A DNA stretch of 21,144 nt from a virus, in the IMG/VR virus record IMGVR_UViG_3300001450_000410, positions 1 through 21,144 of that record; one strand, given 5' to 3'. Below are positions 2,112 through 15,716 of the stretch, in pieces. Positions within the stretch are counted from its first letter, which is position 1. Each line of letters opens with the position of its first letter. The notes beneath the pieces are model-generated. The model was not told where the DNA came from and made no database searches. It saw only the letters and a program-made list of their open reading frames with translations. The position numbers and the translations under genes are program-made.

Positions 2112-3380
2112 TTAACTTTGTCCTGTAAAATCATAGTTTGTTCCATGTTTAATTTTTGTTTTTAAATCGTGTTTCTCAAACACTTTTAATATTTTTTTTA
2201 TTAATTCTTTTTCATCATTATCTATATCTAACAAAAATGCGTCATAGGTATATAATACTAATTTTGTGTTATGATTTTTTAATAACTTTATAATCTCCCA
2301 TAATATACGAACATTAGTTGACGTCTCCAAATTTTGTAGCAAATAATTAAATAACTTTTGTGGGTTCATGTTATCTAATTTATCTCTTTCAAACCTATGT
2401 TTTGATATTGGACATTCTATAAAACCCTCATTTTGAAATTGATTCCATAATTTATCTACGTACTTTTGTATTTTTTTAAAATACGGTAGATCCTTATACT
2501 GATTAAAAACACCGCCGTAAAGCTGTTTAAATGTAAGTTCTTTAGCCTTTTTATAATCCACCCTATACATTTTAGCGAATGAGGCATGGATGTCATCAGT
2601 ATCAAACTTATAATGAATAAGATGGCTGGCAAGAGTAGGATGGTAAGCAGAAATATCAATTTCAAAAAATCGATCATTACGTGGGATAAAGGCTTTACGA
2701 CATTCATTTTCTTTATTTAAAGCAGCAAAGTTGACTCCTCCAAATCTATTAGAGGGTCTTGTGGTGGTTGTTCTGTAGTTATATTGTGTGTATACTTTAT
2801 TTCCCCAATCTTGGTTGAAGTGCTTTTTGAATAATTCGGGGGTAACTTGTATACCATTCCTTTCAATGGAGTTGAATACCAGTGGTACTCTGTTGTTGTA
2901 AAATTCGTTAATGGGTTCATTAAAATATTGTTTTAAATTATTATAATTTTTTTCACACGTTTCATAATGTTTAACTATAGGAATAATTCTATTTATGTCT
3001 AATTTTTCTTTATTTTTTTGTGTTAAAATTTGATGAGCTTTTGTAGTTTCCATCTCATATTCTGGGAGATGTAAAGAAATATCTATTAAATTCTTATGCA
3101 CATAAAAATGTAAAAATTCCTTTTTTCCCCAAACATATAACGTATCATAGCTATTAATTAATTCAACAATATATTCGTTATTTAAACGTAAAGTTTCACT
3201 ATGGTTTATAGCTATAATATAACCCTTAGTCGCATTTAAGGGACGTATATAAACTAAACTAATAGATGTTTTTACAGGGTGGGTTTTATAAGAATATGGT
3301 ATAACTTCTATATAAGCTTCTTTATAACCTTTGTTGTAAAAATCTTTTAGTTGATCTAAATTTTCAACTATATAAAACAT
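2112..3380 (-). CDS. Family A (PolA-like) DNA polymerase, short form
   Basis: A 422-aa phage replicative polymerase candidate. The template-binding segment with TTTRPS...NFAALN is at about 205-222. Motif A is DISAYHPTLASHL from D242. Motif B is K280-x3-F284-x3-YG (288-289), matching K758/F762/Y766 of E. coli Pol I. Motif C is YTYDAFLLD with D380. Both catalytic aspartates and motif B are kept. Pol I motif A is DYSQIELR and motif C is VHDE; here the steric-gate Glu becomes His247, and His and Glu of motif C become Tyr379 and Ala381. The first 170 residues have the length and strand pattern of a reduced DnaQ-like exonuclease domain (AYIEV at 22-26), but no clear DxE or other exonuclease acids, so proofreading is probably lost. 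T4 itself uses a family B enzyme. Rhodothermus phage RM378, another T4-related myovirus, is known to have a family A polymerase split from its exonuclease, which makes this assignment reasonable. Confidence 0.85.
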   Translation of the reverse strand: MFYIVENLDQLKDFYNKGYKEAYIEVIPYSYKTHPVKTSISLVYIRPLNATKGYIIAINHSETLRLNNEYIVELINSYDTLYVWGKKEFLHFYVHKNLIDISLHLPEYEMETTKAHQILTQKNKEKLDINRIIPIVKHYETCEKNYNNLKQYFNEPINEFYNNRVPLVFNSIERNGIQVTPELFKKHFNQDWGNKVYTQYNYRTTTTRPSNRFGGVNFAALNKENECRKAFIPRNDRFFEIDISAYHPTLASHLIHYKFDTDDIHASFAKMYRVDYKKAKELTFKQLYGGVFNQYKDLPYFKKIQKYVDKLWNQFQNEGFIECPISKHRFERDKLDNMNPQKLFNYLLQNLETSTNVRILWEIIKLLKNHNTKLVLYTYDAFLLDIDNDEKELIKKILKVFEKHDLKTKIKHGTNYDFTGQS

Positions 3381-3404: not shown

Positions 3405-4244
3405 TTAATATCCACCTCCTCCACCACTTGGAGTAAATGAAGTTAGTGATGAAGGAGATGATGAAGGTAGTGTTTGTTGGGTTCTAGTAGTAATAATAGA
3501 AGAATTTATTTTAATTAAAGGGATATCTTTCCCTTCTCCGTGATATTTTCCAGTCATAAAATTTCCATTTTTCATTTGGTGAAAAAATCCTACATAATTT
3601 GTTCTATTAGGAAGTAAAAATTCCCCTCCTTTAGTTTCTAAATAGTTAGGGGGGATTTGGGAAGTTGAAAAATTATTTTGAAAATAGTTTACAAAACCAA
3701 ACCAACGATACCTTTTTTCAACTAATTCAACTGTTTTTTTATTAGCTGAGATAATTTGACCCCTTAATGACCATATCAGTTTAACACTATTATACAAATT
3801 AAAGGCAATATCTAAAGATTTTTTTTGTAACAGATTGTAATCTGATGAGGAAATTTCATAATATAAAAACTCATTATTTCTTTTAACAAAATACCTTTCA
3901 TATTCTCCCTTTGCTAAATCTTGAGGAGATGGGGTTGATTTAATTGGATTAGGGACAGAACGAGGAGTAATTGGTTTATTATTATAGTTTCTAACATATG
4001 CAGATTGTACAATATCAGGATTACTTCCCTCAAAGTCTTCTGTGGTTTTATTAAGATTAACATTATTCCCACTAAAAATAGTAAGTAAAACTCCCCCTGT
4101 TCCTACTGAAGTTTTTCCTGTAAACTTTTTTCCTTTTGAAGTTTCATAGTAATATCCCGTATATGATTTTCCTGTAGTAGAAAGATAATATTCTGTTCCA
4201 TTAGTATATAGATTTTCTTTTATTTGAGATTTAGGATAGTACAT
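3405..4244 (-). CDS. Probable virion/baseplate accessory protein with duplicated YTG-TGK motif
   Basis: Family not firmly recognised; 279 aa. Two related segments are visible: 18-45 (EYYL...SYTGYYY...KKFTGK) and 208-234 (EFLL...NYVGFFH...NFMTGK), about 190 residues apart. Each has an aromatic-Gly turn followed by a TGK turn, a pattern typical of beta-rich phage structural proteins. Between them lie a Pro/Ser-rich linker (90-110) and a helical region (112-192). The C-terminus is Ser/Thr/Pro-rich and ends in five glycines and a tyrosine. No signal peptide or membrane segment. It follows the giant hub-peptidase gene after the structural genes and just before the replication block, which suggests a tail or baseplate attachment role (inference). 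Confidence 0.7.
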   Translation of the reverse strand: MYYPKSQIKENLYTNGTEYYLSTTGKSYTGYYYETSKGKKFTGKTSVGTGGVLLTIFSGNNVNLNKTTEDFEGSNPDIVQSAYVRNYNNKPITPRSVPNPIKSTPSPQDLAKGEYERYFVKRNNEFLYYEISSSDYNLLQKKSLDIAFNLYNSVKLIWSLRGQIISANKKTVELVEKRYRWFGFVNYFQNNFSTSQIPPNYLETKGGEFLLPNRTNYVGFFHQMKNGNFMTGKYHGEGKDIPLIKINSSIITTRTQQTLPSSSPSSLTSFTPSGGGGGY

Positions 4245-4258: not shown

Positions 4259-7200
4259 TTAAGTTGGGAAACTATCATTTACCATGTTATGTACATAATC
4301 TATTAAAATTTGTTTATCAGGGTATTGTATATGAAGGTGAATATTTGGAGAATATTTAGCTCCTGACATAAAATTAGATTGTCTAGCTAATAATGTACCT
4401 TTTTTAACAGTATCTCCTTTATTAACAAGAGCATTATTCGTATCCATATGTAAAAGTTTATATATTTTCCCATCATGATCGGATTTAATTTCAATTGCAG
4501 AATCTTGACCATTTTTATAAAAACCTAAAAATGATATCTTTCCGTCAACTGGAGATGGAACATATGGGGATATTGTTTCTGTCCCATCTTCTGTTCTTTT
4601 TAATACCATATCATACATGTATTCTCCTCCTTGTCTTCCTGTTTTAGACCATCCCCCTGATACTTGTTTTGAGTCATCTTCCCATACAGAATAAGAATGG
4701 TGTTTTGTTAAATCATAAGCTGAGGAAATTGCTTTGCTTCCTTTTATAACTTTCCACGCTCCTGCTTTTGTTGGAGGTGGGGTAGATTCATATTCAGGTC
4801 CTGGTCCTTCACTTGCCGGTTTTGGATCTGAAGAATTAATAAGTTCAGCTTCTGGAAGAATTTCTTGAAGAATATCTGGGGTTGAGATTCTTTTTTGAAG
4901 TTTTCCATCTGTTGCTATTATGGATTTGCTAGTAGCTATGGTATCTAAATGAGTAACCCAATCATTACCTGAAAGTTTATGGTTAATTCCTGTTACTAAA
5001 AATTTTAAAGTTTCAGGATAATTAGTTGGTAAAAATCTTGTATCAACATTTAATCTTTGATAAATTTTAATCCCCCCTAAACCATCAAGATCAAGATTTA
5101 AATTAAAAGGTAAAAATCCTACTGAACTTTCTAACCCCTCAGATTGTTCTTCTTCTTCTGATATTTTTGCTTGACAAAATACATAAAAATTATGAAATGT
5201 ATTTTTTTGAACTTCTATAGCATCTGTATTAATTGTTAAATCTGCATTAAATCCTAAAAGTGTTACTTTGTTTGATGATTTAGTCATACTAGCATAATCT
5301 TCAATTACTTGGGCATTTTGTGTTATTAAGGAATCTGGGTCAGATATTGCATCTACTACTTCATTTTTAAACCTATCATGGATACCAACATTCCATTTTG
5401 AAAAGGCTGTTGCTTCGGCTCCAGGAATAGATCCATTAGCCGTTGCTCCTATAGTAATCATAGTAGCATAATTTTTATCAATTTGGGTATTTAAACCTAC
5501 TTTTCTAATAAAATTAGAACCCTCTTCATTATATCCAAAAGTCCCTAATGTTTCTTCTTTAAATGAAGGTTCTAATCCTAATAATTTTGATATTTTTTCT
5601 ATATTTGGTATAGCAGTTTGGTCTATAATTTGAACAGTGTTTCCTGAATAAGATTTTTCATTAAAATATGATGAATCTTTTTTTGGAGTTTCACTAGTAA
5701 TTCTAGGTTCTAAATTATTTAACCCCCCCATACATTCATTAATGTCATTACATATATCTTGTAATACCTTAAAACAACTTAATTCATTGTTTGAGTCAAC
5801 CCCATCAAATATTTCTTGTATTCTATTAAAATTTAAATATATATTCATTGGACTACCCCATAAACTCCATTCTCCATCTATAGGTGCCCCGGTTAGAAAA
5901 TTTTTTAGTTCTGGGAAAACTTTACTTTTTTCTTTTAGATCCTTTTGCTGTTTTTTAAAATCTTCTTCATCTGCAATTTTTTTATAGAATTCATTTTGTT
6001 CTGAATATGTTCCCTTTGATACATCTGAAGATCTAAAAGAACTATTACCCACAATCATTTTTCTTGGGTCTAATGAAATACTATTATCTACAGCATAGCA
6101 TATATTTGTACTAGAATCTGTATCTATAGTTAATATAGGATTGTTAGTACCTTCTATTTTTGGGAAAATTCTTTCTTGTAAAAAATCTAAAAAAGTTCCT
6201 AATCTAATATAATAGGAATATTGAGGTTCACTTATAGTTAAAGATACAATATCAACCTGATGACTTTCTGAACGTGAATCATTGTATGGAGGAAATAAAC
6301 CTGCTTCATTCCACTCTTCTATCATAGTGCTAACTATTTTCCCTCCTTCTTTTTTATTTCCAATAGTTCCCGCATATACAGGGTCAGGATCATCTTCAGC
6401 AACTTTTAATTGACCTGCTTCAAAATCATATACTTGGGCCTCTAGGCTAGGATTAACTATAAATAAGGGTATATCCCCAGCAACAAAAGTATTACCAGAT
6501 GTTTCAAAAGTTGAATTTCTTATTTCTTCTAACCTTTGTCTTTCACTAGCTACTTTTGCTAGTTCTGTATTTGGTTTTACTGTATCAAAATATCTAATAT
6601 TGTATAAATATTCTCTTACTCTATTTTTTCCTCTTTGTTCAGTATCTAATTGAAATTGTGATTTTTCTGCAACATCATCATCTGGGACAGAATCTGCTTC
6701 TGGGTCACCTGCAGAAAAATCATCAGAATCAGTAAAATTAACATTTAAATAAAAATATCTAAAAATTACAAAGACTAATTCCATAAATGAATCAAAATCT
6801 ATATTATTCATTAAAAACTTTTGTTGGTCAAGTTGAATAGAACGTAAATAATTATGATGTGCAACAAAAGTATAATATTTAATGTTATGTGGAAGATAAT
6901 TACTATCATATACGTCTCCTTTTTCACCTATTCTGTAATAATATTGATCTAAAGAAGGAGAATAAAATAATTTTTGTCCATCACTTAAGATTTGAGCATC
7001 TGATGTCCAGGTATAAACAGGAATTCCAAGTGAATTATAATATGCTACATAATTAACTCCTTTTATTTCTTTATCTCTTTCATCCCTCAGATTTTTTCCA
7101 TCCCTAAAATTAATTGCTCTTTTTTGATCTCCTACTAAAACAGATAAGGCGGTTGCCCCCACTGTAGGGTAATTAAGGTTAGCTGCTTGTGTAGCTAAAA

Positions 7201-8515
7201 TTAAAGGAAATAATACATTATTAGAATAACCTGAAATATCAGAAAAACCCCCCAAACCTTCTTGTTCTACTGCGGGTTCAAAAGTAAATTTTAGAGCATA
7301 TCTGATGACATCTTCTAAAATATTATTAATTTCTTGTTGAGCTTTTTGAGGCGTAAAAGTCTGAGAGCCATCTTTATTTGGAATTTCAAAAGTAACACCC
7401 GCAGGGTACAAATAAGTCATAAAATCATTAGGAAAAGTTAAAGTAGTTAGCCAATCTGTAATTCCATCACCTAATGCATAGTCTACCATAAGAGGACCAT
7501 TACCTGATTTAGCTAAATCAAACCACTCTCTTATTTGGACATCTAAATCTTGATATACAGTGTAAAATTGATCTTCTGAAAGACTTAAACCCCCACCAGT
7601 TTCAGAAATTGTTTGTTTAACTAATCTAGAAATTTCTAAAGCTTCTTGAGCAGATAAACCTTCTGTATTTGTTGGAGGAAGATTCATTTTTAATGATTCA
7701 ATAACATCTCCTAAACTCATTATTTCTAGTTTAATGTTATAAGACCCATCCGTTTCAAAGCTCCAAGTAAAATTAGATATTACTCCAAAAACCCCTTCAT
7801 AATTTCCTCCTGATCTTTCTCTTCTTTCTTCAATTTCTGGGAGCCATTTTTGGTAATCAGATTTATCAAAATTATCATCAAACCAATTTTCATCATTTAT
7901 TAGTGATTGATCTGCTGTTGTAAAAGATTCATTATTATCATAGTATTTACTATACCCAAACTCTAACATTACTGAATAACCTAATCTTAGGTATAAAACA
8001 TCAATTACATCAAATTGATATTTATTATGAGCTTTTATTGTAACTGAGGCTTTTTTAATAGAACCTCTATTTAAGGTTTTTACTTCGGCTTCTACTATTC
8101 CTGGCATTGGTGAAAAACCAAAATCACCATCATTTCCTCCAAACCCACCTACCCCATAAGCACCAAATGTTCCACCTTCAATACCTGCTCTATCACTATA
8201 TGTTGCACCCGTAGGATCAAAATCTTCAGTAAAAGTATTACTAATTAAACCATTCCATAAAATATTACCTCTTGCTAAAGATTTTCCTAAAGGTACTCCT
8301 TCTACTAAAGGGTTACCTTTAAGTAAATCCATTCTTTGTTTATCTAGGCTTACTCCTGATGCTAATTTTACCCAAGAATTTCTAGAATTAAGATATTCAA
8401 TTTCTTCTAGAGTTCTTGTGTCATTAAGTAAAGCTCCTGATCCATGAATTTTTTGTCGGACTTTTATTTGTTTTTGGACATATTCTTTAAATGGTTCTCC
8501 TAATATATTTCCCAT
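4259..8515 (-). CDS. Giant baseplate hub protein with C-terminal M23-type peptidase domain
   Basis: A 1418-aa baseplate hub, combining the role of T4 gp27 with a cell-wall-degrading domain that replaces gp5 lysozyme. The N-terminal part (about 130-270) has the hub-type strand pattern ending in VLYLRLGYSVMLEFGYSKYY. A middle part (about 750-830) has ISEPQYSYYIRLGTFLDFLQ and SISLDPRKM. Before the peptidase lies LKFLVTGINHKLSGNDWVTHL, typical of hub proteins. A Pro/Glu/Ser linker leads to a beta-rich M23-like domain (about 1275-1410) with VDGKISFLG, LLHMD (H1356) and HLH (1393-1395). The usual HxxxD zinc motif appears as ExxxD (E1298, D1302), so one ligand is altered. It starts 3 nt after the LysM gene, so the two are probably translated together. 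Hub identity is fairly safe; peptidase activity is uncertain. Confidence 0.8.
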   Translation of the reverse strand: MGNILGEPFKEYVQKQIKVRQKIHGSGALLNDTRTLEEIEYLNSRNSWVKLASGVSLDKQRMDLLKGNPLVEGVPLGKSLARGNILWNGLISNTFTEDFDPTGATYSDRAGIEGGTFGAYGVGGFGGNDGDFGFSPMPGIVEAEVKTLNRGSIKKASVTIKAHNKYQFDVIDVLYLRLGYSVMLEFGYSKYYDNNESFTTADQSLINDENWFDDNFDKSDYQKWLPEIEERRERSGGNYEGVFGVISNFTWSFETDGSYNIKLEIMSLGDVIESLKMNLPPTNTEGLSAQEALEISRLVKQTISETGGGLSLSEDQFYTVYQDLDVQIREWFDLAKSGNGPLMVDYALGDGITDWLTTLTFPNDFMTYLYPAGVTFEIPNKDGSQTFTPQKAQQEINNILEDVIRYALKFTFEPAVEQEGLGGFSDISGYSNNVLFPLILATQAANLNYPTVGATALSVLVGDQKRAINFRDGKNLRDERDKEIKGVNYVAYYNSLGIPVYTWTSDAQILSDGQKLFYSPSLDQYYYRIGEKGDVYDSNYLPHNIKYYTFVAHHNYLRSIQLDQQKFLMNNIDFDSFMELVFVIFRYFYLNVNFTDSDDFSAGDPEADSVPDDDVAEKSQFQLDTEQRGKNRVREYLYNIRYFDTVKPNTELAKVASERQRLEEIRNSTFETSGNTFVAGDIPLFIVNPSLEAQVYDFEAGQLKVAEDDPDPVYAGTIGNKKEGGKIVSTMIEEWNEAGLFPPYNDSRSESHQVDIVSLTISEPQYSYYIRLGTFLDFLQERIFPKIEGTNNPILTIDTDSSTNICYAVDNSISLDPRKMIVGNSSFRSSDVSKGTYSEQNEFYKKIADEEDFKKQQKDLKEKSKVFPELKNFLTGAPIDGEWSLWGSPMNIYLNFNRIQEIFDGVDSNNELSCFKVLQDICNDINECMGGLNNLEPRITSETPKKDSSYFNEKSYSGNTVQIIDQTAIPNIEKISKLLGLEPSFKEETLGTFGYNEEGSNFIRKVGLNTQIDKNYATMITIGATANGSIPGAEATAFSKWNVGIHDRFKNEVVDAISDPDSLITQNAQVIEDYASMTKSSNKVTLLGFNADLTINTDAIEVQKNTFHNFYVFCQAKISEEEEQSEGLESSVGFLPFNLNLDLDGLGGIKIYQRLNVDTRFLPTNYPETLKFLVTGINHKLSGNDWVTHLDTIATSKSIIATDGKLQKRISTPDILQEILPEAELINSSDPKPASEGPGPEYESTPPPTKAGAWKVIKGSKAISSAYDLTKHHSYSVWEDDSKQVSGGWSKTGRQGGEYMYDMVLKRTEDGTETISPYVPSPVDGKISFLGFYKNGQDSAIEIKSDHDGKIYKLLHMDTNNALVNKGDTVKKGTLLARQSNFMSGAKYSPNIHLHIQYPDKQILIDYVHNMVNDSFPT

Positions 8516-11222: not shown

Positions 11223-14048
11223 TTATTGAATTTCTCGTTCTGCTTCAGCTATACCAGCTCCTACTTTTTCACCCTCCATTACTATTGTGAGATCTTTAGC
11301 TAAGATTTGTTGGTTAATTGATATAAGTTTACTTATTCCAGATAATAAAGCTGAATTATCATTTCCACTATTAGAATCATTATTTGTTTTTTCACCCCTT
11401 TTAGCCATAGCATCTGCTGCTCCAGGTGCTGCTATAAAATCATCATTTTTAGAAAGTTCAAATATTCCTCCTTCTTTAGGTGATACCTGTGTTCTACCGT
11501 CAGCAGTGCCCATCATATCCCCTGCTGGTTTTTTAAATTTTGAATATAAAGCCATACCTCCAGCTACGGCGGCAGCAGCTGCAGCAACTGCTAATACCGG
11601 ACCTATAATAGGTATCTTAGCAATAGATATAGCAGCATTAATAGCAAGTTTACCTACACTTAATAAGAAATTAGCAGCAGCTTTAGCAAAGTTTTTCATT
11701 TCTATTAACCCTTCTTGAATTTTTTTCTTATTAAATAAATTTTGGAGTATGTTTTTAGCTCCTAATAACCCATTATATACTAATGTTGCCGCATTTATTG
11801 CTTGATCTTTTATGAATATTAAACCTTTTAAAACAAGGTTTTCTTTATTAAATCCTAAACCAATAGCTGTAAGATTATTATTAACAAGTTCAGCTGCTTG
11901 TATTGCTAAAGTTTTTGCTAGTACTGCACCTTTTGCTATAATTCCTTCTCGGGTAAATTGAAGATAAATAAGCTCATAAGCATTTTTAAGTTTTGCTTGA
12001 ACATTTTCTTTAAAATATTCTAGTACTAATGCTTTTCTATAGCCTAATTCGTATTTAATATTTGCAAGATTAAGTTTACCAAATTTATCCATTACACCTT
12101 GAGTAATACTAATACTTTTAAATAATAAATAAATACTACCTAAAACTTTAAAAAGACCACTATATTGTTTTACAAGTTTAGCTGTACCTGATACAGCATC
12201 TGCAATAAAGCTTACAATAGGCATAATAGCTGTTCCTATATCAACAAATATTGTTTTTAATTGTTCTACCGATGCTGCAAACCTTTCTTGGACTGATTCT
12301 GATTCATATTGGGCTCCTAACCTTTCATCTCCTAATGCTTTAGCTGCTTCTTCAGCAGACATAGTTTGTCTTAATGTAGCATATTTTTTCTTGGCTGCAT
12401 CATTATCAGCCATTCCTATTTTTTGTAAAGCTTCTCTTTCTATTAAACTTTTAGATAATTGTTCTCGTGTTAATCCTGCTGCCTTAGCAAGGGCTTCTTG
12501 CTGGATAACATTCATTTTTTCAAAATCAGCTGCTGATCCTACTTCTTTAGCTACTTCAGCTGCCGCACCTGCAATATCTCCCTTTAAAGCTAATTGTCTT
12601 GCAGATTCTAAATTCAATTGTTTACCTGTAAGTAACTCTGCTTCTAATTCTGATTGGATTGAACCCTCAAAGTCTAATAAACTACTAGATATACTTTCCA
12701 TTTCAGCAAAAGATAAAGCTAATTTTTTAGATGTCATTAAAGTTCTAGTTAAAGCTAGAGGTTGGTTTCTTAATGTTATTAATGTTGCTTTACTTACTTT
12801 ACTAATGTCTTCTAACATTTGTTTTTCACTAAATGTAGTGCCATTTAATGCATTCATAGCAACAAGTTCACCTTGCATAAGAGCTACATTGTTTTCTAAC
12901 TCTGTACCTTGAGAACCTGTCAGTTTAGATATTTCAGCTATAGTTCCAGATGTAAATCCTGCTTGTTTAGTTAAAGCTGTAAAAGACTCTAACATTTGGT
13001 TACTAAAATTAGTAGCCCCTCCAAATTCTTGATTTAATGAATTAAAAGATTCATTTAAGTTTTTAGAATTAACTTGTAAATGATCTGAATCTATTGCTAC
13101 TTGATTAAATTGTTCTTGAAATTTTAGTGATTCTTTATAACTTACACCTATATTTTTTGCTAATTGTCCAGTTAATCTATCTACTGACATCATAGCTGAT
13201 ACAAGAAAGGTAAAGGCTCCTTGTATAAGATTAGCTGATGATAAAACCCCTTTTAAATTACCTGCTACACCCTTTAATGTATCTTTTAAAACACTAGATT
13301 CACCCTTTGTTTTTATGAAATTTTTTCTAGCTCCATCAATAGCATCAGCTATTCCTAGTGCAGGGATTCCTACTTTTTGTAAAGCTTTATCTAACCCTTT
13401 AGCTAATTGACCCCCAAAACCTATTTTTTTATTAAATTCATCTTCTAAATCAATTCTATCTTCAATTTTATCTAGTACATCTTTTTGAATATTATTTTCG
13501 TCTCTTAAAATACCAAGGGCAGATCTAGCTTTTGCTCTATCCTCTGCCTTCATTCGGCCTATCTTTAAACCATCCTTTTGTTGTACTTTTCCATCTTGGG
13601 TTCTAATACCCATTTGCTGCAATAAAGCAGCAGCACTATCTTTAGCTAATCTTGAAGAAGCTCTAGCTCTTTCTTGGATTGCTTTTAATTGTTTTTTAGA
13701 TAAATTACCTATATCTTCTTCTTCATTTGCTAGTTTTTGGGCTTCTTTAATAAGGCCCTTCATCCCTTTTTCTAAATCTTTTGTAGCATTTATTCCTTTA
13801 GGATTAATTTCACTAACTACAGCTTTTAAGGTTTTTTCTAAATCATCAAAAGAAGAGTTTACTCTTCTAACCTGGGATTCAACTCCGTCTAAACCTACTT
13901 CTAATTGTTGGATTGTATCATTAACATCCTTTATTTTATTAGGATCTATCCCCCTAAAAGGATTTTTCTTTCCTAATTGGTTGTAATTTTTTTGGATTTG
14001 ATCCAAAAGATCTTTTATTTCCTGTAGTTTTTTAGGATCTGCGGCCAT
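11223..14048 (-). CDS. 29: Tape measure protein (gp29 position)
   Basis: At 941 aa this is one of the longest genes and it follows the tail tube and the gp26/gp51-like genes, the standard position. It would set tail length, fill the tube lumen and later help DNA entry. The protein is mostly predicted helix: coiled-coil N-terminus (about 1-220, EIKDLLDQIQKNY, many K/E/L heptads), a hydrophobic stretch near 270-295 (FTFLVSAMMSV), long Ala/Leu/Lys helices, and an Ala/Val-rich membrane-like segment at about 840-865 preceded by IPIIGPV. The C-terminal region has GGIFELSKNDDFIAAPG, a common tape measure end motif, and ends in a short charged helix. T4 gp29 is 590 aa, so a longer tail than T4 is suggested. 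The AAATGGC start lies after an AATATTTATA element. Confidence 0.85.
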   Translation of the reverse strand: MAADPKKLQEIKDLLDQIQKNYNQLGKKNPFRGIDPNKIKDVNDTIQQLEVGLDGVESQVRRVNSSFDDLEKTLKAVVSEINPKGINATKDLEKGMKGLIKEAQKLANEEEDIGNLSKKQLKAIQERARASSRLAKDSAAALLQQMGIRTQDGKVQQKDGLKIGRMKAEDRAKARSALGILRDENNIQKDVLDKIEDRIDLEDEFNKKIGFGGQLAKGLDKALQKVGIPALGIADAIDGARKNFIKTKGESSVLKDTLKGVAGNLKGVLSSANLIQGAFTFLVSAMMSVDRLTGQLAKNIGVSYKESLKFQEQFNQVAIDSDHLQVNSKNLNESFNSLNQEFGGATNFSNQMLESFTALTKQAGFTSGTIAEISKLTGSQGTELENNVALMQGELVAMNALNGTTFSEKQMLEDISKVSKATLITLRNQPLALTRTLMTSKKLALSFAEMESISSSLLDFEGSIQSELEAELLTGKQLNLESARQLALKGDIAGAAAEVAKEVGSAADFEKMNVIQQEALAKAAGLTREQLSKSLIEREALQKIGMADNDAAKKKYATLRQTMSAEEAAKALGDERLGAQYESESVQERFAASVEQLKTIFVDIGTAIMPIVSFIADAVSGTAKLVKQYSGLFKVLGSIYLLFKSISITQGVMDKFGKLNLANIKYELGYRKALVLEYFKENVQAKLKNAYELIYLQFTREGIIAKGAVLAKTLAIQAAELVNNNLTAIGLGFNKENLVLKGLIFIKDQAINAATLVYNGLLGAKNILQNLFNKKKIQEGLIEMKNFAKAAANFLLSVGKLAINAAISIAKIPIIGPVLAVAAAAAAVAGGMALYSKFKKPAGDMMGTADGRTQVSPKEGGIFELSKNDDFIAAPGAADAMAKRGEKTNNDSNSGNDNSALLSGISKLISINQQILAKDLTIVMEGEKVGAGIAEAEREIQ

Positions 14049-14083: not shown

Positions 14084-14413
14084 CTATTTATAACTACTTT
14101 TACCCTTAAAGGGGTTTGATGTTGGTGATGTTTTATTTTGGGTTGATTTTGAAGCTTGAGCAAATGCTGGGGTGTTGACAGTACCATCAGAATTTATAAG
14201 ATTAGTTTCACCTTGGCCTTTATTTGCTTTATCATATTCTTTCTTTTCATCATCATAGTGTTTTTTAATTTCTGAAAAAGTATATTTTCTTAACCATAAA
14301 GGCATGTTGTAGATAGTATGAAAATCATATCCACCTTTTCCATGAAATACTATTTGGTGTATTTGGTTAAATACAGAAAGTCTAACTTGTGAGGCTATCT
14401 GAGTAGTCAGGCC
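14084..14413 (-). CDS. 51: gp51-like frame, probably expressed by +1 frameshift from the gp26-like gene
   Basis: The first ATG in this frame is at 14305 and would give only 73 aa (MPLWLRKYTFSEIKKHYDDE...). The frame stays open upstream to 14428 and its translation there looks like real protein: SVFNQIHQIVFHG, then KGGYDFHTIYN just before MPLWLR. That stretch has no ATG, GTG or TTG. It overlaps the end of the gp26-like gene and begins at a T7 run, so frameshifted readthrough is the simplest explanation, giving a 109-residue extension on 237 residues of the upstream protein. The C-terminal 40 residues are Ser/Thr/Asn/Lys-rich and disordered-looking. Location before the tape measure fits a tape-measure chaperone of the lambda G/GT kind; the YNMP-LR pattern recalls gp51 of T4-like phages. 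A separate short protein from 14305 cannot be excluded. Confidence 0.65.
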   Translation of the reverse strand, partial: GLTTQIASQVRLSVFNQIHQIVFHGKGGYDFHTIYNMPLWLRKYTFSEIKKHYDDEKKEYDKANKGQGETNLINSDGTVNTPAFAQASKSTQNKTSPTSNPFKGKSSYK

Positions 14414-15125
14414 AAAAAAAGTTAAGTCCTATAGGGACTCTCACCTCCTCTCCATCATCCATCATATAGTTTAAATCTACATCTGGTTGGTTTTGATTTA
14501 TATATTCTCTTAGGGCTCTAGAATCTCTTGCTAATAAGTAATTATCGACAAATTCTCTTATTGTTTTTGAATCAGTTTCTCCTTCAACTGATGTTATTAA
14601 ATGTTTTAATCTAGTAGTAAGATCAGGAGAAGCATTTTTATTCATTTTTTTAAGACCTGCTAATTCTTTTTCTATTTTAGTATCATCATGGCCTGTTAAA
14701 ATCTTAAATGTAATGTTAGTTCCACTATGAGGTAACTTAAAACTAAATTCATTTTTACTTTCTGTTATTAAAGAAGTATCAAATTCTTTATTATCTAATT
14801 CAGATAAATCAATAGTTTCTTCTTCTCCATTATATTCAAATTTGTAATCTTTACCATACCCCAAAATACGAGTTGCTATTAAAACAGCATTTTTATCTCC
14901 TATTATTAAATCTTTTGGGTTTATCTTTGACACTATTACAGATTCTAGTAATTTATCTAGAACTGTTCCTTTTTGAATATATCCTTGGTTTGTTAGTATA
15001 TCTTCTTCTTTAGCAGTCATATATTTTATTTCTATTTTACCGCTTGAAAGAGGATTTTCTTTTGGGTATACTAAACCCTTTGATGGTAATTCTACTTCTT
15101 CTGAAGGGAATTTAAATTCTGCCAT
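14382..15125 (-). CDS. 26: gp26-type baseplate/tail assembly protein, probable tape-measure chaperone
   Basis: A 247-aa protein of the T4 gp26 (T4_baseplate) type. Hallmarks are LPSKG at 13-17 followed by YP and SGKIEIKYMTAKEEDIL, then KGTVLDKLLESVIV (52-65). The later half has a helical region with charged residues and ends in VPIGLNFFWPD (230-240). In T4-like phages gp26 takes part in hub assembly but is not a clear virion component, and its place between tail tube and tape measure is that of the tail assembly chaperones. The last codons AAC TTT TTT TGG carry the T7 run where the +1 shift into the gp51-like frame is proposed; without the shift only 10 more residues follow Trp238-Pro239 before the TAG. 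It begins 102 nt after the tail tube gene, past a terminator, so it probably has its own promoter. Confidence 0.8.
   Translation of the reverse strand: MAEFKFPSEEVELPSKGLVYPKENPLSSGKIEIKYMTAKEEDILTNQGYIQKGTVLDKLLESVIVSKINPKDLIIGDKNAVLIATRILGYGKDYKFEYNGEEETIDLSELDNKEFDTSLITESKNEFSFKLPHSGTNITFKILTGHDDTKIEKELAGLKKMNKNASPDLTTRLKHLITSVEGETDSKTIREFVDNYLLARDSRALREYINQNQPDVDLNYMMDDGEEVRVPIGLNFFWPDYSDSLTS
14414..14423 (-). other. Candidate +1 (or -2) ribosomal frameshift site
   Basis: Coding strand AAC TTT TTT T|GG at the end of the gp26-like gene: a run of seven T (14420-14414). Skipping one T, or slipping back two, moves the ribosome into the open gp51-like frame starting GGC CTG ACT. The frame arithmetic fits +1 or -2 and not -1. 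Confidence 0.55.
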
Positions 15126-15227: not shown

Positions 15228-15716
15228 TTAGAAATTTAATACACAGTAATCTGGTTGTACTGTTAATGAAATTTCTTTTGCTTCATTTTCAGTATCCCAA
15301 TTATAATCACCAAATGTTGCTTCTGTAATTAATGCACCTTTGATTACCCATTCTGAAACTATATCTCCTACAGGTCCTAAAATATTTACTGTAAGATCTT
15401 TTTTATAAAAATCAGAATAACCATCTCTACCTGTTACAGATTCGTGATGTAGTCTTACCCACTCCATTACTGCTTGAGCTCCTGATGGTGTAATCGGATC
15501 AAATAATGTCATTGATATTGGTCCCCAAGTGGTTTTACCTTTAACAAATCTTTGAACATTAATGTGGTTTAAAGCTACTGTACCTTGGGCTACATTTACT
15601 GCTGCAACTCCTTTAATAATGAAGCTTGGTATACCATCCATATAAAGGATGAATCGGTTCGCTTGTTTGGGTTCAAACGCGGTGAAAAATATTTCGTTGG
15701 GATCTAATACTGCCAT
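15228..15716 (-). CDS. 19: Tail tube protein gp19
   Basis: At 162 aa it matches the length of T4 gp19 (163 aa). It polymerises into the inner tube inside the sheath. The sequence is typical: N-terminal FEPKQANRFILYMDGIPSFIIKGV, central WGPISMTLFDPI, the MEWVRLHHESVTGRDGYSDFYKKD segment, then ILGPVGDIVSEWVIKGALITEATFGDYNWD and a final beta strand VQPDYCVLNF. It follows the sheath gene after 45 nt and is insulated from downstream genes by a strong terminator. Among the safest calls in the window. Confidence 0.93.
   Translation of the reverse strand: MAVLDPNEIFFTAFEPKQANRFILYMDGIPSFIIKGVAAVNVAQGTVALNHINVQRFVKGKTTWGPISMTLFDPITPSGAQAVMEWVRLHHESVTGRDGYSDFYKKDLTVNILGPVGDIVSEWVIKGALITEATFGDYNWDTENEAKEISLTVQPDYCVLNF

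Follow-up and report, generated by a model that had tools for sequence, protein, structure and literature searches.

A probable +1 ribosomal frameshift in a T4-type tail chaperone gene of a virus from IMG/VR

Frameshifting in tail chaperone genes is among the most widely conserved recoding events of phages. Nearly all of the tail-chaperone cases named in those portions of the literature that we drew on shift by -1. The 21,144-nucleotide stretch of viral DNA analyzed here (IMG/VR record IMGVR_UViG_3300001450_000410; “the window”) raises a different question: how is a downstream frame translated that overlaps the end of a gp26-like gene, lies +1 relative to it, and runs for some 40 codons before its first start codon? 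We examined the junction itself, its relatives in metagenomes and isolated phages, and the protein families to which the two frames belong.

The junction and its gene neighborhood

All of the features in Table 1 lie on the minus strand. At the junction, frame 0 reads CTT AAC TTT TTT TGG CCT GAC and frame +1 reads ACT TTT TTT GGC CTG ACT. The frame containing MPLWLRKYTFSEI is +1 relative to the gp26-like ORF and ends at 14084. From 14428 it stays open for 41 codons without ATG, GTG, or TTG, the first ATG being at 14305, and because an in-frame TAG closes it immediately upstream, the extension cannot begin any farther upstream. A one-base skip at the T run gives a product of 346 aa, with 237 residues to ...NFF followed by 109. 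A sequence-only reading of this DNA had proposed a programmed +1 frameshift just before the tape measure gene, citing about 40 start-free codons above the ATG, an overlap with the end of the gp26-like gene at the T7 run (AAC TTT TTT TGG), and a joined product of 237 + 109 residues; these particulars hold, and the relatives described below support the proposal itself.

Table 1. Coordinates of the junction and neighboring genes in the window.
Feature	Position	Strand	Remarks
gp26-like ORF, putative short tail assembly chaperone (TAC-N; lambda G counterpart)	14382..15125	-	247 aa; ATG at 15125 to TAG at 14382; C-terminal end ...LNFFWPDYSDSLTS, then stop (direct reading)
Candidate frameshift site TTT TTT TGG CCT	14409..14420	-	T7 run at 14420-14414
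+1-frame extension, putative C-terminal T-like part of long product	14087..14413	-	109 codons after the shift; stop TAG at 14086-14084
0-frame stop of short product	14382..14384	-	29 nt past the T run (direct reading)
In-frame TAG closing the +1 frame upstream	14429..14431	-	direct reading
Tail tube gene, upstream neighbor	15228..15716	-	phrog_4542 tail tube, E 3e-21
Tape measure gene, downstream neighbor	11223..14048	-	phrog_2854 tail length tape measure, E 6.4e-9

In the window, a tail sheath gene lies upstream of the tail tube gene, and the order tube, gp26-like gene with its extension, and tape measure is the lambda order V-G-T-H. A 1418-aa ORF at 4259-8515 (minus strand) is a baseplate-region protein, the C-terminus of which (HDGKIYKLLHMD ... 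NIHLHIQYP) presumably resembles an M23/LytM peptidase domain. Close to the tail genes, a 422-aa ORF at 2112-3380 (minus strand) contains DISAYHP ... LTFKQLYGG, which we take to resemble the active region of a family A DNA polymerase.

Like the window gene, lambda gpG/gpGT, P2 E/E', and Mu gp41 sit between the tube and tape measure genes; they give a short and a frameshifted long product and shift near the end of the short frame, as is proposed for the window gene. Lambda shifts by -1 and Mu by -2, according to part of a review (PMC5009743), and P2 also by -1, whereas the window type is +1; the families differ too, lambda G belonging to phrog_42 and Mu gp41 to phrog_508 rather than to phrog_150 as does the window type. 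The sole hint linking the +1 set to phrog_508 is a weak match of one relative, Listeria phage LIS04 (E 0.038).

The best reading is that the window gene would encode a pair of tail assembly chaperones, one short and one long, as lambda does with G and GT. Most ribosomes would terminate at 14382 and release the gp26-like short protein of 247 aa. In a minority, the tRNA-Phe paired with UUU in the P site would slip forward by one base at the U7 run and re-pair with UUU or UUC, and translation would continue in the +1 frame to 14084, yielding a long product of 346 aa with the final 109 residues forming an extension predicted to be mostly helical. If the proteins act as lambda gpG and gpGT do, the abundant short form would coat the tape measure protein, and the extension on a few long copies would recruit tube subunits. 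Judging from comparative sequence evidence, programmed ribosomal frameshifting into the +1 frame, with a -2 variant of the same event counted within it, is very probably how the extension is expressed.

Conservation of the frame relation in related loci

Using the short product as the query against IMG/VR, we took the best 80 loci of a longer list. The extension was matched by tblastn in 79 of the 80, in the +1 frame in all 79, and each match began at query residue 1 or 2, the query opening one codon before the T run; the contig of the 80th locus terminates at the junction. Such agreement is far beyond what chance would produce. The L037 contig ends 5 nt past the 0-frame stop. In L069, an in-frame stop lies close to the start of the gp26-like match (region near 3011), perhaps through a sequencing error.

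Queries with Microcystis phage Mel-JY01 and LIS04 added at least 82 loci, 80 of them readable (L241 and L270 run off the contig). In this second set, as in the -1 set and LR756511 described below, we called the frame from whichever open run was longer, which gave +1 in 77 of the 80; in L245, L274, and L282 the longer open run is -1, yet the homologous extension sits in +1. A recognizable +1 extension is present in all 80: a strict motif identifies it in 52 and a relaxed one in 72, and the last 8 were recognized by eye. The two sets together comprise 162 metagenomic loci, of which 3 have contigs that stop at the junction; the other 159 are readable, and all 159 show the +1 relation. The lists for the window and Mel-JY01 queries are the best 80 of longer ones, so further relatives exist.

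The same layout occurs in isolated or complete records: Flavobacterium phage immuto, Mel-JY01, Rhodothermus phage RM378, LIS04, Streptococcus phage GXN1, and the uncultured LR756508. IMG/VR held two relatives of LIS04, only RM378 itself for RM378, and none that we could confirm for LR756508. A megablast search with the 35-bp junction found no match, that is, no near-identical DNA among isolated phages. Homopolymer runs are error-prone on some sequencing platforms, and an indel introduced during sequencing or assembly, or decay of the gene, could place the two frames out of register; the recurrence of one relation in every readable metagenomic junction and in independently sequenced isolates, together with purifying selection on both sides of the junction, makes this explanation negligible.

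That selection is seen in the codons. The 83 junctions used for column counts were reduced to 78 distinct ones by removing five repeats, and among these the +1 frame remains open for a median of 93 codons beyond the 0-frame stop (minimum 17, counting contigs that are cut), and the -1 frame for a median of 6 (maximum 75). In 59 junctions we examined the stretch from +42 to +84, which follows the 0-frame stops and precedes the window's first ATG. There the +1 frame has a pN/pS of 0.30 and no stop codon in 826, and pN/pS is 2.60 in frame 0 and 1.06 in frame -1. Upstream of the junction the pattern is reversed: frame 0 has no stops and a pN/pS of 0.61, and the +1 frame has 137 stops in 1180 codons and a pN/pS of 0.90. 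A second group of 14 junctions agrees. The sequence-only reading had asked whether homologues are similar before the Met-Pro at 14305 and keep the T run, and had named homologues that all start at this Met-Pro, or a loss of synonymous constraint above 14305, as evidence against it; instead, similarity starts at the T run in 79 of the 80 loci, the run is kept in most junctions, and the codons above 14305 are strongly constrained.

These observations bear on whether the downstream frame might be a separate gene with an internal start, either a non-ATG codon upstream of the extension or the ATG at 14305 within it, and no fusion. In 52 of the 78 distinct junctions the open +1 frame does contain an ATG, GTG, or TTG above the slip site, most commonly a TTG at -8 (34 of 78), and a small standalone ORF is annotated in public records: those of immuto and Mel-JY01 show the short gene and a separate small ORF. 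However, no such codon precedes residue 10 of the extension in 22 of the 78 (the window and 21 others) or residue 28 in 15 of the 78, and in 15 distinct junctions, the window included, there is none before the conserved GGY block of the extension. Nor is the AGGAGG found upstream of many junctions tied to a close start; of the 49 junctions that have AGGAGG, 21 have a start no more than 22 nt from the slip site and the other 28 do not (Fisher p 0.16). With codon constraint in the +1 frame present after the run and not before it, we regard a separate gene as highly improbable. A long ORF (at least 250 codons) starts within 2.5 kb downstream in 63 of the 78 distinct junctions, at a median gap of 36 nt.

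The candidate slip site and the probable direction of the shift

Most sites are identical: 128 of 145 distinct +1 junctions (166 including repeats) read TTTTTTTGGCCT, and the remaining sites include TTTCTTTACCCT, TTTCTTTGGCCT, TTTCTATTCCCT, TTTTTTCGTACC, TTTTTTAGTACC, and TTCTTTCGTCCC. In the 78 distinct junctions, the columns TTT YTT TGG CCT GAC are 94 to 100% conserved, with T as the first base of the second codon in 94%, and around these columns the third positions of many codons vary. Not all of this conservation need be signal, since TGGCCT is fixed by having to encode both Trp-Pro (frame 0) and Gly-Leu (frame +1). Such double coding does not fix the third base of either UUU codon. The Phe codon is TTT in 141 of 142 cases at the first slip position and in 140 of 140 at the second, compared with 82% of the Phe codons farther upstream in these sequences, which are related by descent.

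The frame relation is compatible with +1 or -2, as the sequence-only reading had also calculated, and the variant sites help to separate the two. We scored re-pairing of the slipped tRNA with wobble rules applied. Each of the 13 site classes contains at least one UUU that re-pairs perfectly after a +1 move. A -2 ribosomal shift of the kind used by phage Mu (according to excerpts of PMC5009743 and PMC3498833) would give the same fusion with an extra Phe (347 aa), and at sites with at least six Ts a P-site UUU re-pairs perfectly two bases back. Clean -2 re-pairing needs six or more Ts and fails in 4 of the 13 site classes, amounting to 6 of the 145 distinct junctions: at TTTCTTTACCCT, TTTCTTTGGCCT, TTTCTATTCCCT, and TTCTTTCGTCCC, the three scored codons all mismatch at the first or second position, whereas the +1 UUU fits. 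At the TTTCTTT, TTTCTATT, and TTCTTTCGT sites, UUU re-pairs at +1 with no clean re-pairing at -2. Where the T run is broken, only a +1 move allows clean re-pairing, so the site variants favor +1, and a -2 shift seems unlikely. The TTTCTATT and TTCTTTCGT sites point to a P-site UUU that would move to UUC.

The same variants argue against slippage of RNA polymerase on the T7 run, by which some mRNAs would be one U short and then be translated normally. A T7 homopolymer is indeed present at the junction in most loci. The frame relation, however, is still +1 at the TTTCTTT, TTTCTATT, TTTTTTA, TTTTTTC, and TTCTTTCGT sites, which have no run of seven; slip-site codons that vary to CTT or CTA shorten or break the run but retain one UUU; and GGCCT beyond the run is conserved as strongly as the run itself. 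Transcriptional slippage is therefore very unlikely, and a +1 slip of the ribosome is the reading that we follow below.

Several stimulators of such a slip were considered. A hungry or rare A-site codon does not fit, given that UGG, the A-site codon, outnumbers GGC, the +1 codon, in nine ORFs of the window (8.6 versus 2.2 per 1000); the two codons that may stand in the A site, TGG and TTT, occur at 8.6 and 42.8 per 1000 in those ORFs. Shine-Dalgarno stimulation via GGAGAGGAGGTGAG was likewise rejected: in the window AGGAGG lies at 14449-14444, 23 nt upstream of the T run, and in 29 of the 78 distinct junctions AGGAGG is absent from -45 to 0. A search for conserved RNA structure with RNAalifold gave 0 kcal/mol in three windows of the 59 ungapped junctions.

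The prfB-type +1 site is CUU UGA with a close Shine-Dalgarno sequence. The +1 set differs on both counts, having UGG or UUU where prfB-type sites have UGA, and the Shine-Dalgarno sequence that lies a few nucleotides upstream in prfB-type sites corresponds in the window to the distant AGGAGG described above. Another comparison is with the influenza PA-X site UCC_UUU_CGU, at which a P-site UUU slips +1, as proposed for the window type; part of the PA-X literature (PMC3498833) argues from a sequenced peptide that UUU slips to +1 at UUU_CGU and holds that a rare A-site codon helps the slippage. In the window, by contrast, the A-site codon is not rare, as judged from the nine window ORFs. The PA-X core UUU_CGU occurs in the GXN1 (L103) site and in one of the two LIS04-like loci (L204 and L205). 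The tail chaperone of the haloarchaeal myovirus HSTV-2, which an excerpt of PMC5009743 gives as very likely using +1 frameshifting, resembles the window type in its reported direction.

Relation to T4 gp26 and gp51 and to -1 relatives

The short product is homologous to T4-type gp26. It matches phrog_150 (“baseplate hub”) with an E value of 1.4e-9, and in the fused product the match reaches profile position 270 of 282 instead of 202, with a gain of only 0.8 bit from the extension. On its own the window protein does not reach PF12322 (Pfam T4_baseplate), which is reached by its relatives RM378, LIS04, GXN1, and Atu_ph07, and the window extension has no hit to phrog_634. Among the BFVD models, the short product matches those of T4-type gp26 (e.g., Q19CJ6, E 4.4e-5). 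Its AlphaFold model has a pLDDT of 89.7; in a Foldseek search of 350,542 PDB chains, the first match was the HK97 tail assembly chaperone 2ob9, at a weak E value of 0.74 (prob 0.51), and VIA-align of 840 chains gave 2ob9 a Z of 4.7 over 81 residues at 4.5 A, a value that could arise at chance level, with the next chain at Z 3.1. This modeled likeness is weak but would fit the proposed role. The model of the extension is mostly helical and of low confidence (pLDDT 72.5, pTM 0.47).

Both T4 proteins belong to these families: gp26 (208 aa) matches phrog_150 at E 6.7e-71 and PF12322 at 8.8e-64, and gp51 (249 aa) matches them at 2.6e-84 and 3.9e-52. Only gp51 runs on to phrog_150 position 280 and matches phrog_634. 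As paralogs of the same families, with an additional C-terminal part in gp51, gp26 would correspond to the short product and gp51 to the long one. The window's short product is of the gp26 type, and its fused product reaches the part of phrog_150 that only gp51 covers. T4 itself has two separate paralogous genes, on opposite strands and without a frameshift, where the window has a single, probably frameshifted gene. The sequence-only reading had called the downstream part gp51-like, which stands in the sense that the C-terminal ~110 residues would be gp51-specific but not in the sense that they are equivalent to gp51, since the counterpart of T4 gp51 is the long product in its entirety. Its suggestion that gp26 and gp51 are the counterparts of G and GT is not new as a reinterpretation, being attributed to Vladimirov, Gautam and Davidson (2022) in the papers that cite them. 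As cited there, some T4-like phages do not frameshift but have one gene for the short protein and another, fused gene for the long one (PMC10885494), and T4-like chaperone genes carry poly-T -1 signals (PMC12846349). A passage of an earlier review names T4 as an exception to G-T frameshifting (PMC5009743), and part of a T4 review describes gp51 as an essential protein that the particle does not contain and whose function is unknown (PMC3004832).

Many T4-type phages (Kyanoviridae, Ackermannviridae, Schizotequatrovirus, and others with gp26 and a small gp51) have the same pair with a homologous extension, but in the -1 frame. We assembled this set from the best 80 IMG/VR loci for cyanophage S-PM2 gp26 and 13 named records (S-PM2, HTVC008M, Mosig, Melnitz-3, phiM7, SRB7757, PX29, BUCT608, V05, K469, Kevin, RHph_I1_9, and LPCS28), S-PM2 being counted twice (L100, and L144 from IMG/VR). 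The longer alternative frame is -1 in all 93, and TTTTTTC in the register T_TTT_TTC is present in 87 of 92, L101 being omitted from the motif count because the locus is reversed. Agrobacterium phage Atu_ph07 and the uncultured LR756511 are also -1, with TTTTTTC. A -1 frameshift would explain why, in the relevant part of Sullivan et al. (2010; PMC3037559), the first ~200 residues are missing from cyanophage gp51. In Vibrio phage K469 (L120) and Serratia phage Kevin (L121), the -1 extension is kept without the T_TTT_TTC heptamer, with CTT TTT GCG and GTT TTC ATC, respectively, just ahead of the stop. In the jumbo phage LR756511 (L088), the overlap of the 0 and -1 frames is unusually long, with the 0-frame stop at 3769.

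The extensions of the two directions are connected in steps: window-type to Listeria-type +1 extension (P 1.7e-5), Listeria-type to -1-type extension (P 9.1e-6), and -1-type extension to T4 gp51 residues 200-244 (P 4.2e-5). Compared directly, window-type and -1-type extensions give P 6.8e-4 (probability 27%), the window extension family and T4 gp51 give P 0.67, and the window-type gp26 profile has no match to T4 gp26 alone. The short parts of the window and -1 types are related (P 3.7e-6).

A quick, unrooted tree was built from 50 short proteins. One branch, with support of 65, which is not strong, separates the 29 +1 rows from the others, and with T4 excluded a single change of the direction label is enough; T4 gp26 and gp51 sit on long branches within the -1 part. 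LR756511, once included, groups with the +1 rows of the Listeria type (support 84), and two changes of the label are then required. The direction of the frameshift thus appears, on these trees, to have switched once or twice. A single origin of the +1 form, in line with the one change on the 50-row tree, is no longer supported with LR756511 included.

We tentatively propose a broader history that seems to us plausible, if not quite the likelier course: the T4-type chaperone gene would have switched direction at least once, the +1 form being kept in phages of Bacteroidota and Firmicutes, of one cyanobacterium, and of numerous uncultured hosts; the 12-base UUU UUU UGG CCU of the main +1 group seems to work without a close Shine-Dalgarno sequence, a stop codon, a rare codon, or conserved RNA structure and would represent a class of bacterial +1 signal not yet described; and the T4 lineage would have replaced the shift by gene duplication.

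The kind of system is already known, as is the equivalence of T4 gp26 and gp51 to G and GT. Apparently new are the conserved +1 direction, which runs through a large lineage of phages, and the compactness of its signal. Among the literature matches listed, no title or abstract reports a +1 shift in gp26/gp51-type genes; Vladimirov et al. (2022), known to us through citing papers, may mention such cases. A homologous gene that uses -1, +1, or two separate genes offers a way to study how frameshift direction evolves, and the +1 signal is short enough for dissection base by base. The rule that PRFect, as partly described, applies to forward shifts is that the new-frame A-site codon must be commoner than the old-frame one, so that it would probably miss the window's site, given the codon counts of the nine window ORFs. 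In a number of phage annotations, the small ORFs listed as “hub assembly catalyst” or hypothetical proteins are probably pieces of such fusions.
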